Below, in pieces: positions 33,714-40,301 of a DNA stretch of 64,000 nucleotides. The stretch spans positions 124,001 to 188,000 of the forward strand of contig NZ_JAUYHK010000010.1 in NCBI RefSeq assembly GCF_030690045.1, read 5' to 3'. Each line of letters begins with the position of its first letter. Within the stretch, counting starts at the first letter, position 1. Both the position numbers and the translations under genes were made by a program. The notes under the pieces were generated by a model that did not search any database, was not told where the DNA came from, and saw only the letters and a program-made list of their open reading frames with translations. The DNA is from Thalassospira sp. GTDB lineage: Bacteria > Pseudomonadota > Alphaproteobacteria > Rhodospirillales > Thalassospiraceae.

Positions 33714-35789
33714 GTGTTTGGAACGTCGATCTCGCGATTGATTATCGTGCTGCAAGGCATTTTGCTTGTTGGTTTTGTCGGCGTCATGGCGATTGTCGCC
33801 GTGCTCAGTTGGCGGGATGCCACGGATGCCTCCAATATTCTGGATGCCACCACCACCGACAAATTGCTGTTTGATGCCATGATCGGCGTCCGCCAACAAA
33901 TCGCCAGCACCCAAACCGCGATTGTCTCGCGCGACGATCTGGTATCCGCCCTTGGCGACACCCGCAGCATTGCCGATACCAGCTTTCAGTCCGCCCTTTC
34001 GGCGATGGCCGCCCTCGACATTCCCGGCAAGGATGCGCAGGTCAGTACCCTCGAAGCCGCATGGCGGGAGATGAAACAGCGCGAGGCGCAGATCGACGCC
34101 CTTGCCTCCACCCCGAAAGCCGATCGTGACCTGAAAGCAGCCGCCCCGTGGTCCGACGCCGTGCGCGGCGTGGTCAATGCGATTTCGGACGCCTCGTTGC
34201 TGGTCGGCAACAATGTCCGGCTTCTGGACCCCTTTGTCGCAGAAATGATCCAGATTCGCCGCTCTGCCTGGCAGGTGCGCGACCATTACGGATCGCAATG
34301 TTCACTGTTGCGTCCCTTCATTTCCCAAAACCAGCCCCTGACCGTCGAGGCGCTGTCAAAATGGCAAAACGGCATTGGTTCCTATCAGGTGGCGTGGGGG
34401 GCGATTGATTTGCTGCTGGCGCGTCCCGGCGCACCGGCGCAACTGGTCGCCGCCGTCGCCAGCGCCCAAAAAGCAACCGCCGACGCCCAAGGCAGCATGA
34501 ATACACTGGTCGAAAAACTCGACAATAGCGGCCAGCCCGTCATCGCGCCGGTCGAATATACCGCCATGTGCAATGGTCCGTTCGATAGAATCGTCGATAT
34601 CGGCCATATGGCAATGGACGAAGCCGTCACGCATGGCAAAAATGCGCTGGCCACAGCGCAGGTCGTTCTGGGCTTTTCCGCCCTGACCCTTCTTCTGGTT
34701 CTGGCATTATCGTTTTTCGCCATCACCTCGGTTTTGCGGCGTTTCTCGCGCCCGATCAGCATCCTGATGACGGCGGTTGGCAAATTGTCGATGCGCCATT
34801 TCGCCGAACCGGTCCCGGCCCTGCCCTATCCCGATGAACTGGGCCGCCTGTCCACAGCCCTTGAAGAACTGCGCCACAACGCCCTTGAGGCCGAACGCCT
34901 TCAGGCAGAACAACAGGCCCAGCAACAACATCAGATCGAACGTGGCGAAAAACTGGCCACCGCCGTCAGCAGCTTTGAACGCGGCATTTCGCGCGTTGTC
35001 ACTGCGGTGCGCGATGCCTCCATCCATATGCAGGCCAATGCACAAAATCTTTCGGTTCTTGCCGAAGACGCCAACAGCCGGTCTGTCACGGTTGCCCATG
35101 CCTCCGAAGAAGCATCGGGCAATGTCCAGACCGTCGCCGCCGCCTCCGAAGAACTCAGCGCCTCGATCAGCGAGGTCAACCAGCAGATCAACAATTCATC
35201 GCGCATGGCTACCGAAGCCGTGGGCGAGGTAGACCGCACCAATGAAAGCTTCGAGGATCTCAAGACCGCCGCCGAAAAGATCGGTGCCGTGGTCGAACTG
35301 ATCCAGAATATCGCCTCCCAGACCAATTTGCTGGCGCTGAACGCCACCATTGAATCGGCCCGGGCGGGCGAAGCGGGCAAAGGCTTTGCCGTCGTCGCCA
35401 ACGAGGTCAAAACGCTGGCGACCCAGACCCACAAGGCGACCGAGGATATCTCCGCCCAGATCGCCGGAATGCAATCGGCCGTTGGCGGCTGCATCACCGC
35501 CATTGCCACCATCGGTCATAAAATCCGCACTATTGACGAAGCCATCTCGGCGATTTCAGCGGCGACCGAGGAACAATCCTCTGCCACCCAGGAAATCGCC
35601 CGCAATGTCCAGCATGCCGCCGCCGGCACGGCAGAGGTTTCCGATAACATCTCGTCGGTCACGGAAATGGCGGGCAAAACCGGCCTGCTCTCGTCCGATG
35701 TTCTCGAAGCCTCCTCGCAATTGTCCGCACAGGCCGATGCGTTGGGGCAGGAGGTCGAACATTTCCTGACCGAAGTCCGGGCGATCTGA
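33714..35789 (+). CDS. Methyl-accepting chemotaxis protein with large helical sensor
   Basis: 691 residues starting at GTG. An N-terminal helix (about 8-32), a long all-alpha periplasmic sensor (about 35-310) with two Cys (SQCSLL, AMCNGP), second helix (about 312-340, [19 protein letters not shown]), HAMP ([18 protein letters not shown]) and MCP domain with [24 protein letters not shown] over two stretches. The sensor resembles NIT/4HB-type helical domains, but the ligand is unknown. Terminator at 35813 follows. Confidence 0.9.
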
Positions 35790-35812
35790 CCCCGCCCATC
35801 CCGTTCCCGATC

Positions 35813-35840
35813 AGGCCCGGCATCCCCGCCGGGCCTTTTT
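35813..35840 (+). terminator. Terminator of chemoreceptor gene
   Basis: AGGCCCGGC (35813-35821) and GCCGGGCCT (35828-35836) form a stem followed by TTTT. Confidence 0.88.
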
Positions 35841-35909
35841 CTTGACGCCCCTGCCCCGGCGGCGCAAAAGCAATAAAACGATATGACGGCACAAAGGGGA
35901 TCAGACACA

Positions 35910-36554
35910 ATGACAGAATACACCGGCCCGGAATCCATCGGTGGCAAGTCGGTTTTGTTCGTGATGGCCGCCCGGCCCGAATATGGCCCGCATTTGCAAG
36001 CCCGCATCCGCCCCCTGATGACCGGGATCGGCCCGGTCGAGGCCGCCGTCAATCTGACCAGCGTCCTTGCCGGATGCCATGCCAAAGGGGAACGCCCCGA
36101 TCTGGTCGTCTCATTGGGTTCCGCCGGATCGCGCAGCCTGCAACAGGCCGAAATCTATCAGGCAACCTCGGTATCCTACCGCGATATGGATGCCTCGGCC
36201 CTTGGCTTTGAAAAGGGCCGGACCCCCTTGCTGGATCTGCCTGCCATTCTTGATATGCCCCTGCGCATTCCGGGCATTGCCCCGGCGCGGCTGTCCACCG
36301 GCGCCAATATTGTGTCGGGGGCCGCCTATGACGGCATTGATGCCGATATGGTCGATATGGAAACCTTTGCCGTCCTGCGGGCCTGCCACAAATTCAATCT
36401 GCCGCTGATCGGGTTGCGCGGCATTTCCGATGGCGTGGCCGAATTGAAACATATCGGCGACTGGACCGAATATCTGCATATCATCGATGAAAAACTGGCG
36501 GATGCGGTCGATCGTCTCGAAACCGCAATCCGCCAGCAAGTCATTGTCCTGTAA
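35910..36554 (+). CDS. 5'-methylthioadenosine/S-adenosylhomocysteine nucleosidase-like protein
   Basis: 214 residues of the PNP/MTAN fold. MTGIGPVEAAVNLT, VVSLGSAGS, the ligand segment DADMVDMETFAVLRA (with the Met-Glu that contacts ribose) and LRGISDGV are in family order. It would cleave adenine from MTA or SAH. The start at 35910 is preceded by AAGGGG; an ATG nine codons earlier is less likely. The gene ends 2 bp from the convergent NPC-repeat gene. Confidence 0.87.
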   Translation: MTEYTGPESIGGKSVLFVMAARPEYGPHLQARIRPLMTGIGPVEAAVNLTSVLAGCHAKGERPDLVVSLGSAGSRSLQQAEIYQATSVSYRDMDASALGFEKGRTPLLDLPAILDMPLRIPGIAPARLSTGANIVSGAAYDGIDADMVDMETFAVLRACHKFNLPLIGLRGISDGVAELKHIGDWTEYLHIIDEKLADAVDRLETAIRQQVIVL

Positions 36555-36556
36555 TC

Positions 36557-36946
36557 CTATTGTGCCCCTGCGCCGCAAGGATTGATCGCGGCACACGGGT
36601 TCACTGCGGCGCAGGGATTTATCGCCGCACAAGGATTGGCAGGCGCACAAGGACTGGCGGCACAGGGATTACCCGCACCACACGGATTATAGGCCCCGCA
36701 TGGATTGGCTGCACAAGGGTTCCCGGCAGCACAAGGGTTCATCGCCCCACACGGGTTGCCCGCAGCACAGGGATTCCCTGCCGCACACGGATTTGCCGCA
36801 CCACACGGATTGCCACCGTCATCTGGCACCGCCGCCGGGCGGGCAATTGCCGCCGGGTTGGGCTGATTCGCGATATGATCGGCGGCCACCGCCCCGGTTG
36901 CGGCCAGAAACACCGCGCCATATAAAAGATAATTGCGTTCGCTCAT
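36557..36946 (-). CDS. Cys-rich NPC(A/G)A hexapeptide-repeat protein
   Basis: 129 residues. A hydrophobic signal/anchor (about 7-22: LLYGAVFLAATGAVAA) leads into about 14 tandem units of the form NPCAAx or NPCGAx (from residue 46 to the end), giving 14 cysteines mostly six residues apart and no other Cys. The underlying DNA is an 18-bp repeat. Its ATG overlaps the stop of the YeeE/YedE gene (ATGA), so they are coupled. Similar NPCAAK-type strings exist in uncharacterised proteobacterial exported proteins. Metal or sulfane-sulfur binding outside the cytoplasm is an inference from composition and context. Confidence 0.75.
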   Translation of the reverse strand: MSERNYLLYGAVFLAATGAVAADHIANQPNPAAIARPAAVPDDGGNPCGAANPCAAGNPCAAGNPCGAMNPCAAGNPCAANPCGAYNPCGAGNPCAASPCAPANPCAAINPCAAVNPCAAINPCGAGAQ

Positions 36947-38160
36947 TTCTTTTTAAATCCATCAAGCCCAAACAGCGGACGCAGCCAAATCCCGATCAGA
37001 CTGCCGCCAAAGGCCGCACCAAACCATAACCAGCCATGCAAACTGCCCGAGGCAATGCCGCTAAACAGCGCCCCGATATTGCAGCCAAAGGCCAGCCTGG
37101 CGCCATAACCCATCAGAAGCCCGCCAATCGCCGCCGCCAGCAACGATGCCAGCGGCACCGCAACCTTTGGTGCAAATTTCCCGGCCAATGCGGCGGCAAG
37201 GGCCGCGCCAATCACAATGCCGAAATTCATCACCGATGTTGTATCCATCAACACCGACCGCGACAGCGCCAAGGCCGGTCCGGGCCAGTTCCAGAATTCC
37301 CACGTCGCCACCGGAATGCCGACCGCCTGCGCAATCTTCGCCCCCCACAGGCCAAACCCAAACGTGATCGACCACGGATGACCGGCAATCAGCAAGGTGG
37401 CAATATTGATTGCGGCCAGTAAAATACCGGTCCCGACCAGCGGCCACGGCCCATGCAGCACCCGCGCCAGCCCCGACCGCGCCGCAGGTGCGGCGGCTTC
37501 CAGCGATCCATGCGCCCGGCGTTCAATCACAATCGTTGCCAGAACCACCAGTGCCAGCACCCCGAACGTCACCGCAACACCGCCAAAAATGCCCAGTTCA
37601 GTCCCCAGACTGATCGGCGGCAAGGACGGCAGCGCCAGCCATGCGGGCAAATGCGCCGACCCGATCACCGCCCCGATGATGAAAAACACCAGCGTCACCA
37701 ACATCCGCGCACTGCCACCGCCCACGGTAAACAGCGTGCCCGATCCGCATCCGCCGCCCAATTGCATGCCCAGCCCGAACAGGGCCGCACCAAACAGTAC
37801 CGATACCCCGACCGGGGCCATCGCCCCGACAATCGGTTGCCCAAAGGGCGAACCAAGCGCCAGCAACGGAATAAAGGCGACCGTCGCCACCGCAATCATT
37901 ACCATCTGGGCACGCATCGCCCGCCCGCGCCGCTCGACGGCCAACCGGCGCCAGCCGCCGGTAAAACCGAACGCCGCATGATACAGCGCCATGCCCAGCA
38001 CCCCGCCCATGCCATACAGCACGGCCTGACGCAGACCGGCGGCCTGCGCAATCGCAATGGCACCAAGAACAAAAATCGCGGCAATCAGGGCCGCAGCCCC
38101 GCGATCAAACGGCACCCGGCCCGGCATGGAACCGGCGGACGAAAGACGGATTTCACTCAT
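36943..38160 (-). CDS. YeeE/YedE family sulfur transporter
   Basis: 405 residues, about ten membrane helices in two repeats. The conserved cysteine signatures GGGCGSGTL (Cys138) and FGCNIGALFSG (Cys360) match YeeE/TsuA, the thiosulfate uptake channel in which such cysteines relay thiosulfate. The neighbours (periplasmic rhodanese upstream, Cys-repeat protein downstream, ATGA overlap) support a sulfur-compound substrate. Some YeeE homologues are instead linked to selenium, so thiosulfate is likely but unproven. Confidence 0.9.
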   Translation of the reverse strand: MSEIRLSSAGSMPGRVPFDRGAAALIAAIFVLGAIAIAQAAGLRQAVLYGMGGVLGMALYHAAFGFTGGWRRLAVERRGRAMRAQMVMIAVATVAFIPLLALGSPFGQPIVGAMAPVGVSVLFGAALFGLGMQLGGGCGSGTLFTVGGGSARMLVTLVFFIIGAVIGSAHLPAWLALPSLPPISLGTELGIFGGVAVTFGVLALVVLATIVIERRAHGSLEAAAPAARSGLARVLHGPWPLVGTGILLAAINIATLLIAGHPWSITFGFGLWGAKIAQAVGIPVATWEFWNWPGPALALSRSVLMDTTSVMNFGIVIGAALAAALAGKFAPKVAVPLASLLAAAIGGLLMGYGARLAFGCNIGALFSGIASGSLHGWLWFGAAFGGSLIGIWLRPLFGLDGFKKK

Positions 38161-38249
38161 GACAAAGCCTTGTCAAACACCAAAAATCAAACGCCACCGC
38201 ACCCGGTATGATGTCGGGATGCGGTGGCACATCACAAAGTCATAACAGA

Positions 38250-39185
38250 TTATTGTGCCGGAACAACCACATCGCGCGATGCATCGGCCGCCCATTCGGT
38301 CATCGATCCGTCATACATGCGGGTATTTTTATTCCCCATCACTTCCGACAGACCAAACCACGCCACAGACGCCCAGTGGCCAGTATTGCAATAGGCAATC
38401 TCGTCGGCCTCCGGTGCCACACCGGCGGTCCCCACCAGTTGCGCAATCACATCCGATGCCACAAACGCGCCTTTCTGATCATCATAAAACGCGCTTTGTT
38501 CGATATTGACCGCACCGGGAATCGCCCCGGCCCGCGCAACAATCGGGCTGGTTTGCTGGCCCAGATATTGCGCCTTGGGCCGCGCATCGATCAGGGCCAC
38601 ACCGTTGGCCTGTGCGGCGGCAACATCATCGGCATCGGCCAGCAATTCCGGCCGGAAATTCGCATTGAACGCCACGGTTTCCGGCGTTACCACATCGGTC
38701 GAAGTCTCGCCATTCGCCGCGATCCATGCGCGCTGTCCACCATCAAGGATCGTCACCGCGTCATGACCCAAAACCTTGAAGGTCCAATAAACACGGGTCG
38801 CCGACCCGAAATCGCTGGAATTTTCACCCGCCGGGACGATCACCACCTGGGTGTCGTTATCAATGCCAAGGCTGCCGATTTTCGCCGAAATATCCTCGAC
38901 CGGCGGCAATTGCCCGACCACATCGCCCACCTTGGTGCGCCAGCCAAACTGCGCATAAGACGCCCAGACCGCACCGGGAATATGCCCCACGGCATACGGA
39001 TTGGCATCCTTGGTCGCATCGCGCACATCAACCACCACCAAGGACGGATGATCCAGATTCCCTTCCAGCCACGCCGCATCGACCAATGGCTGATCGGTCA
39101 GACGCTCCGCCTGGGCGGACGAAACCGCCACACCGGAAAAAACAAAAGCAACAGCCGCAACACCGGCCACAAGGAAAGAACGCAT
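38250..39185 (-). CDS. Periplasmic sulfurtransferase with two rhodanese domains
   Basis: 311 residues with a Sec signal peptide (cleavage after SSAQA). The N-terminal rhodanese domain (about 30-155) lacks a catalytic Cys; the C-terminal one (about 175-300) carries Cys266 in the loop YCNTGHWAS. This tandem form is that of thiosulfate/3-mercaptopyruvate sulfurtransferases, which move sulfane sulfur onto thiol acceptors. Its placement 89 bp before the YeeE gene suggests that it processes sulfur compounds outside the inner membrane. Confidence 0.92.
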   Translation of the reverse strand: MRSFLVAGVAAVAFVFSGVAVSSAQAERLTDQPLVDAAWLEGNLDHPSLVVVDVRDATKDANPYAVGHIPGAVWASYAQFGWRTKVGDVVGQLPPVEDISAKIGSLGIDNDTQVVIVPAGENSSDFGSATRVYWTFKVLGHDAVTILDGGQRAWIAANGETSTDVVTPETVAFNANFRPELLADADDVAAAQANGVALIDARPKAQYLGQQTSPIVARAGAIPGAVNIEQSAFYDDQKGAFVASDVIAQLVGTAGVAPEADEIAYCNTGHWASVAWFGLSEVMGNKNTRMYDGSMTEWAADASRDVVVPAQ

Positions 39186-39419: not shown

Positions 39420-40169
39420 TCACGGCCTCAAACTATTCAAATACCGCGCAAATTCCCGCGAGAATGCCGCATGGGTTTCGCTGCTGCGCAAGGATGGCGG
39501 GCGGGTCAGAAAGCCATGCAGGGTAGCAATGATGAATTCGGCGACCGAGGCCGGTTCGGCGTCGGTGCGGATGAAATGGCCGAATTGCGACCGGCTGATA
39601 TGCCCGGCCAGCCCGCGCCGCCAATGCCGGTATGCCCCGTCAATCCGGCGGCGCAAATTATCGTCAAGATCGGCGGCCTCGGCCGCAAACCGCGCCAGCG
39701 GGCAACCCCCATCAAGGGCGGCGGGGGCCGCATCGCTGCCCAGAATATCAACCTGCGCCATCAAAACCGGCAACACATCCTCCTGCCCGGCCAGCGGATC
39801 CAGCCACACAGTGTTGATATAATCAGGCAGGCATTCCTCGATCACCGCATGGCCCAGCTTCGCCTTGCCGGGAAAATGATGATACAGCGCCCCCTTGGTC
39901 ACGCCGGTTTTATCCAGAATCCGCGCAATCGACGCCCCGGAAAATCCGGCATGGCGGATTTCGGCAAAGGCCGCGTCCAGCAGCATCCGGCGCGTTGCCG
40001 CCCCGGCGGCTTCCTTGCGCATCATCGCCACCCGTCGCCCGTCGCGCGGCACAATCCCGGCAGGAACACCTGCATTTCCCCCGGCATTCCCCCCGGTCTC
40101 GGAGCCTTCCGGGGCCGATACCACAGAAAGATCAGACGGATCAGCAGGATGCAGGGGCGGATGGGTCAT
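39420..40169 (-). CDS. TetR family transcriptional regulator
   Basis: 249 residues as called. The TetR helix-turn-helix (GFSGASIARILDKTGVTKGALYHHFPGKAKLG) begins only about 65 residues in; the preceding part is a Pro/Ala/Gly-rich extension (NAGGNAGVPAG). Starts at 40214, 40169 and 40025 are all possible; the last gives normal family length, and the extension may be untranslated. The C-terminal domain resembles TetR_C_6-type AcrR relatives with GGCPLARFAAEA. Target unknown. Confidence 0.8.
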   Translation of the reverse strand: MTHPPLHPADPSDLSVVSAPEGSETGGNAGGNAGVPAGIVPRDGRRVAMMRKEAAGAATRRMLLDAAFAEIRHAGFSGASIARILDKTGVTKGALYHHFPGKAKLGHAVIEECLPDYINTVWLDPLAGQEDVLPVLMAQVDILGSDAAPAALDGGCPLARFAAEAADLDDNLRRRIDGAYRHWRRGLAGHISRSQFGHFIRTDAEPASVAEFIIATLHGFLTRPPSLRSSETHAAFSREFARYLNSLRP

Positions 40170-40301
40170 GGCGATCTTTCGGATCGGGTTCTGATCGGGT
40201 TCGAGCTGTTTCATTATGCCCGCAGGGTCGCGTCTTTTGCCGCCAAGGTCAATATCGCAACGCGCACTCCCACAGCCGCCCCTTGCAATTCCATGATTTT
40301 C

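Follow-up and report, generated by a model that had tools for sequence, protein, structure and literature searches.

A candidate sulfur-handling operon of a rhodanese, a YeeE-family transporter, and a tethered cysteine-repeat protein in Thalassospira and its relatives

The entry of sulfur into the cytoplasm has been described as poorly understood (PMC11582611). TsuA, a member of the Sulf_transp family, imports thiosulfate with the aid of conserved cysteines, of which Cys91 and Cys293 are said to be indispensable in the S. thermophila protein (PMC11582611). The present work concerns a locus in a 64,000-nucleotide stretch of Thalassospira sp. (contig NZ_JAUYHK010000010.1, positions 124,001 to 188,000), referred to as the window, in which three genes encode a rhodanese, a YeeE/YedE-family transporter that also belongs to the Sulf_transp family, and a small protein with a tail of cysteine repeats. 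The two TsuA cysteines align with C138 and C360 of the window YeeE. However, no TusA-like TsuB, the partner of TsuA, was found among the seven window proteins scanned with Pfam (the three genes and four neighbors); the window has instead a rhodanese and a cysteine-bearing arm, to which relatives add a protein of the DUF6969 family.

SoxT1A and SoxT1B of Hyphomicrobium denitrificans are likewise alphaproteobacterial and YeeE-like, and have been proposed to deliver sulfur either into the cytoplasm or to a regulatory protein. They differ from the window locus in that they are encoded among sulfur-oxidation genes, together with a 56-amino-acid one-helix protein devoid of cysteine, and the parts of that paper that deal with them describe no cysteine-repeat protein alongside (PMC11582611). 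A version of the locus from another class resembles PmpAB, a split YeeE, and the bigR-type operons in having two YeeE halves and a BigR-like ArsR regulator, but the bigR operon is reported to encode the sulfurtransferase/dioxygenase Blh (PMC5823870), whereas this version encodes a rhodanese-domain protein, a protein with NPC repeats, and DUF6969.

Exported cysteine-motif proteins are also known from the bufferins and other MNIO-modified peptides, whose signal-bearing precursors are accompanied by an MNIO maturase. A survey of these systems reports a few bufferins fused to cytochrome c or FGE domains and calls FGE a cuproenzyme (PMC12452194). The window locus differs in that its genome (G000; 4.23 Mb, 97% complete) gave no match to MNIO (PF05114) and in that DUF6969 is a different Pfam family. 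As to the cytochrome P460 family, a P460-like domain is present in many NPC proteins elsewhere, whereas the window protein has no heme domain, and a review of this family (PMC11928373) contained none of the terms looked for in it. The result listings of a literature search contained no description of an NPC-repeat protein or of its pairing with YeeE/rhodanese or FGE/P460, and no paper naming DUF6969 was found in the library searched.

The three genes and their cysteines

Rhodaneses pass sulfane sulfur to thiols via a catalytic cysteine. The two-domain rhodanese of the window (38250-39185, minus strand, 311 amino acids) was identified by its open reading frame (ORF), Pfam, and matches to sulfurtransferases in the PDB, the best with an E value of 8.5e-34. 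The Pfam Rhodanese domain was detected in two stretches, and the sole cysteine of the protein, the active-site Cys266 in the loop YCNTGHWAS of the C-terminal domain, is retained in all 83 aligned sequences, that of the window included. Its scores stayed below the NCBIfam equivalog cut-offs for both SseA (105 against 250 bits) and ExtH (80.1 against 200 bits). The N terminus, MRSFLVAGVAAVAFVFSGVAVSSAQA, is signal-like by eye, and the protein is probably located in the periplasm. The following gene, YeeE (36943-38160, minus strand, 405 amino acids), matched Sulf_transp (PF04143) with 245.8 bits at a cut-off of 27 and is the sole full-length PF04143 match in the genome, the second one being partial. 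Its only cysteines, C138 and C360, are retained in 105 and 104 of the 105 aligned sequences, respectively, and correspond to residues 91 and 293 of the TsuA structure 6leo, as counted from the printed alignment, whereas residue 22, a cysteine in TsuA, has no cysteine counterpart.

YeeE and the third gene share an ATGA start/stop overlap (36943-36946, minus strand; ..AAATGAGC..). The ORF of this third gene (36557-36946, minus strand) encodes 129 amino acids with 14 cysteines, and the product is apparently exported or membrane-tethered, judging from an N-terminal hydrophobic anchor or signal (MSERNYLLYGAVFLAATGAVAADH; 36875-36946, minus strand; hydrophobicity assessed by eye). All 14 cysteines, located at residues 48 to 124, follow a proline, 13 of them as NPC, and form [N/S]PC[A/G] units with spacings of solely 5 or 6, so that the PC-repeat tail (36560-36811, minus strand) is free of CxxC pairs. 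The repeat protein had no Pfam or NCBIfam match, and hence none to a known bufferin precursor profile, the profiles newly introduced in PMC12452194 not being among those scanned; a comparison with plasmids gave no match either. Its sole PDB sequence match, FLVCR2 (E value of 0.2), was judged to be due to chance. An earlier note, made from the window sequence alone, had described the rhodanese with Cys266, the YeeE with both cysteines, the 14-cysteine protein, and the ATGA overlap, all of which were borne out by the sequence, Pfam, and the alignments.

Conservation of the locus within and beyond the genus

Named genomes were scanned with an alignment of YeeE, which provided the best 80 of 256 confirmed loci; the figures obtained therefore describe this YeeE subfamily and not all YeeE proteins. 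The 80 loci span Devosia, Aminobacter, Mesorhizobium, Chelativorans, Pelagibacterium, Sinorhizobium, Martelella, Caenispirillum, Oceanibacterium, Thalassospira, metagenome-assembled genomes, and others. A rhodanese is encoded directly upstream of YeeE (same strand, less than 400 bases away) in 74 of them; of the six exceptions, L156, L158, L172, and L201 lack it, whereas the stretches of L135 and L210 stop at the edge of a contig. The tethered cysteine protein is encoded directly downstream of YeeE in 78 loci, the remaining two being L185, which ends at a contig edge, and L201, which has none, with less than 400 bases left. Its gene starts at the same offset as in the window in 74 of these 78 loci, five copies are cut by contig ends, and six have a variant anchor start, including that of L195, the frame of which is broken. 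DUF6969 then follows in 58 of the 80 loci. Half of the 22 loci without it downstream are from Thalassospira, five run out of contig (L131, L143, L167, L174, and L185), two from Caenispirillum have DUF6969 upstream of the rhodanese, L201 has it elsewhere, and L142, L168, and L184 have none. The flanks of 36 non-Thalassospira loci (111 of 173 ORFs scanned) contained no recurrent regulator or extra gene, and no Pfam family, among the 25 commonest of 99 families listed, was present in more than three of the 111 ORFs. Conservation thus ends with the quartet, which is the unit. In one locus, L053 (1741-2964, genome G372), the YeeE frame is split in two in this assembly, and a short tethered protein with three cysteines is encoded downstream.

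The part shared by the whole family of tethered proteins is the anchor start, [R/K]N..L[F/Y][G/A], directly after YeeE, followed by a tail of [N/A/S]PC[A/S/G]A units; the window protein fits this definition. Of the 650 cysteines in the 72 copies detected with the first anchor pattern, 642 follow a proline; most cysteines are 5 or 6 residues apart, and CxxC accounts for 2 of 580 spacings. The 73 copies with a stop codon contain 2 to 31 cysteines, with a median of 6 and merely 2 to 4 in some orthologs, and cysteines are retained in every complete, unbroken copy. The NPC motif, which the earlier note had taken as the defining feature, is a lineage variant, because 27 of the 73 copies contain it, and other orthologs use APC or SPC.

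Within Thalassospira, the repeat protein was matched (E value of 0.001) in all 29 genomes (that of the window and 28 others); the rest of the order, represented by 31 genomes, gave a match in 6. YeeE directly adjoins the repeat gene in 27 of the 28 loci of relatives, the 28th starting at a contig end, so that the locus is not a matter of chance. Differently arranged versions were found elsewhere in the phylum, which was sampled with 398 genomes, 20 of them having DUF6969. Three species of one genus from another class encode, in a row, two YeeE halves, an NPC protein, DUF6969, a rhodanese-domain protein, and an ArsR regulator. Here, the NPC protein comprises 77 amino acids and looks exported, the rhodanese-domain protein comprises 325 (Pfam on L348), the ArsR scored 102 bits against BigR, under the equivalog cut-off of 155, and a small YgaP-like membrane gene follows it in two of the three listings. 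The order in the alphaproteobacterium G659 is YeeE, a tethered SPC/NPC protein, DUF6969, and rhodanese. The different order and the split YeeE suggest a separate assembly or a strong rearrangement, and under either origin the parts of the operon travel together. The linkage of the tethered protein to YeeE and rhodanese, seen in 78 and 74 of the 80 loci and again in the class with the BigR-like regulator, is thus stronger than the earlier note had claimed, and its view of the genes as one sulfur-handling unit is well supported.

As to the genes around the unit, rhodanese and a TetR-family regulator are located upstream in all ten Thalassospira 20-kb loci, the regulator being approximately 4 kb away in L069, L074, and L078; in the window, Pfam identified it upstream of the rhodanese at 39420-40214 (minus strand). 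The upstream TetR is a Thalassospira feature in the loci examined. A DEAD-box helicase gene is situated 0.3 to 1.2 kb downstream in 10 of 10 other Thalassospira 20-kb loci, and in the window the repeat gene is separated from this helicase gene by a methyl-accepting chemotaxis gene and a PNP_UDP_1 nucleosidase-family gene (33714-36554).

DUF6969 and other cysteine-repeat proteins

Outside the genus, the commonest Pfam neighbor of NPC genes is DUF6969 (13), followed by FGE-sulfatase (5), as determined for 120 of 155 ORFs from 23 loci. The class was represented by 385 genomes, of which 27 gave NPC hits (E value of at most 1e-6) and 90 contain DUF6969; 26 of the 27 have both, the exception being G353 (Fisher p of 4e-17, uncorrected for phylogeny). 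In 27 loci with NPC proteins other than the YeeE-linked type, DUF6969 was present in 21, an FGE-like protein in 11, a YeeE relative (39 to 51% identity) in 5, and a rhodanese in none. The earlier note had rightly named rhodanese and YeeE as partners of the repeat protein but missed DUF6969, the most general one. It had also regarded homologs lying mostly away from sulfur genes as evidence against its reading; taken literally, this is the case for the NPC motif in these 27 loci, but not for the tethered orthologs. As a whole, its interpretation is partly supported.

The association was also analyzed from the side of DUF6969. Of 94 DUF6969 loci (stretches of at most 12 kb), 38 contain a strict PC-repeat protein and 7 other cysteine repeats recognized by eye, and tblastn with one query each detected an FGE-like protein in 29, a P460 domain in 26, YeeE in 7, and rhodanese in 2. 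Twenty arbitrary stretches, taken as controls from 16 of these genomes, had none of these features (38/94 versus 0/20, p of 1e-4), and a cruder measure, at least 8 cysteines per 40 residues in any ORF, was positive for 51 of the 94 loci versus 1 of the 20 controls. In L223, L236, L287, L290, L293, L302, and L356, DUF6969 is located beside exported-looking cysteine-repeat proteins with motifs such as ACGACG, KCGACG, GCCAAE, and CSPCGA; these divergent motifs suggest that cysteine periodicity rather than NPC matters. Each of the 29 Thalassospira genomes possesses exactly one DUF6969. That of the window's genome is on contig C13 (L068 8979-11367), outside the operon and beside a second NPC protein, in the order TRAP, UspA, NPC paralog, FGE-like protein, and DUF6969, which is also found in L079 and L080; the FGE-like protein looks exported and contains CxxC. 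In an alignment of 81 distinct DUF6969 sequences of more than 150 amino acids, taken from 160 matching ORFs, H60, H62, H73, H75, H89, D50, and N108 are present in all 81, E70 in 79, and H71 in 77, from which we infer a possible metal site. No obvious signal peptide was seen by eye, and a PDB profile search for DUF6969 returned nothing up to an E value of 10.

Short proteins that look secreted contain NPC repeats as well, and in many of the NPC proteins from other loci the C-terminal part is a P460-like domain, although one of three tested (L064) was just under the Pfam cut-off. In 17 loci, large proteins of 10 to 37 NPC units are fused to a P460-type heme domain (L092 9311-10468, L086 10009-11115, and L099 8967-10145, for instance), and 14 of these 17 stretches hold DUF6969. 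CxxC pairs are frequent in the short and P460-type NPC proteins, making up 202 of the 496 spacings in the 19 analyzed. NPC repeats joined to a putative CxxCH domain that by eye resembles mono-heme cytochrome c were also seen in L351 (4587-5327), L353 (6265-7113), L357 (6606-7427), and L354 (4723-5391). The FGE-like proteins near NPC genes have GCGxC in 37 of 38 aligned sequences, near KGGSWDD (for example, L002 2071-3036), a spacing that presumably differs from the cysteine pair of classical FGE. In L352 (3138-6662), a bufferin-type MNIO (MNIO_BufB, 382 bits at a cut-off of 310), DUF2063, DoxX, a CG-rich cysteine-repeat protein, and DUF6969 are encoded in one row.

Proposed function and alternative explanations

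The reading that we prefer, and to which we give roughly an even chance on the basis of gene linkage and conserved residues, is that the periplasmic rhodanese, YeeE, and the tethered cysteine arm, with DUF6969 in many lineages, form a conserved sulfur-handling operon. The rhodanese would load thiols with sulfane sulfur, the donor of which may be thiosulfate, polysulfide, or a different compound. The arm would be anchored in the inner membrane through its N-terminal helix and extend into the periplasm, where its several independent thiols would take up sulfur and present it at the mouth of YeeE, which would then pass sulfur, or thiosulfate, inward. The number of units would set the capacity of the arm, a possible reason for the tolerance of 2 to 31 of them. 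DUF6969 would act on or with cysteine-repeat proteins in general, because it accompanies them also where YeeE is absent, most likely as a histidine-rich partner or as a factor for their maturation or repair.

Several observations weigh against this reading. The 80 loci, selected by YeeE as the best of 256, are mutually related and do not represent independent events. YeeE is far below the TsuA equivalog and exception cut-offs of NCBIfam (63.9 against 400 and 49 against 645 bits), and thiosulfate is therefore not a given as its substrate. In Thalassospira, DUF6969 is encoded outside this operon, and 49 of the 94 DUF6969 loci have no cysteine-repeat protein by the criteria used, one of these 49, L295, covering a three-cysteine tethered protein. 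Finally, the P460- and FGE-type NPC proteins and the pair in L352 hint instead at the handling of metal or copper.

Copper handling is the main rival: the cysteine tail would be a periplasmic buffer of copper or soft metals similar to the bufferins, with rhodanese and YeeE supplying or removing sulfur during metal or thiol stress. The cysteine-repeat/DUF6969 pair directly beside the MNIO bufferin maturase, DUF2063, and DoxX in L352 speaks for it, as do the richness in CxxC of the other-type NPC proteins, the FGE-like genes in 11 of 27 of their loci, and the cysteine pair retained in 37 of 38 of these proteins, FGE being the domain that the survey calls a cuproenzyme and reports in bufferin fusions (PMC12452194). 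For part of the wider set of NPC proteins, metal chemistry is therefore a serious rival, given their CxxC content and the MNIO-adjacent pair. For the YeeE-linked form, however, we consider it unlikely: the near absence of CxxC (2 of 580 spacings) weighs mildly against classical metal chelation, some orthologs have merely 2 to 4 cysteines, the flanks, judged by their 25 commonest families, show no recurring metal transporter or sensor, and the genome has no MNIO match. Isolated, near-identical cysteine units that tolerate 2 to 31 copies are more easily reconciled with a multi-site carrier than with a folded metal site. It is distinctly improbable that the small protein is instead a passive structural subunit of YeeE, adding one helix and a low-complexity Pro/Ala/Cys tail whose cysteines serve disulfide cross-linking or attachment. 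The anchor start common to the family, the approximately 15-fold variation in cysteine number, and the mainly proline-rich nature of some tails would agree with such a linker or scaffold, but the PC context of 642 of 650 cysteines, their presence in all complete and unbroken copies, and the association of DUF6969 with cysteine-repeat proteins in loci devoid of YeeE argue against it. A chance neighborhood of unrelated sulfur genes was rejected as having next to no probability, since the order, the overlap, and the partner set are conserved in dozens of species and another arrangement exists in another class.

A further proposal, which we put forward tentatively and consider rather doubtful, concerns DUF6969. 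This family would be a new class of cytosolic metalloenzymes that modify the cysteines of repeated exported proteins (NPCAA, APCAG, ACGACG, GCCAAE, and others) before export; the window protein would then be a modified thiol polymer serving as a sulfur-relay arm at YeeE, and the heme-fused forms would use the same arm for redox or metal chemistry. If true, this would be a RiPP-like (ribosomally synthesized and post-translationally modified peptide) system unrelated to MNIO.

The fixed and transferable combination of a transporter, a sulfurtransferase, and a multi-thiol arm offers a compact and testable model in environmental genera, Thalassospira and Devosia among them, and DUF6969 gains a candidate role as a partner of cysteine-repeat proteins. 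The conserved gene set suggests an undescribed mode of dealing with reactive sulfur outside the cell membrane.

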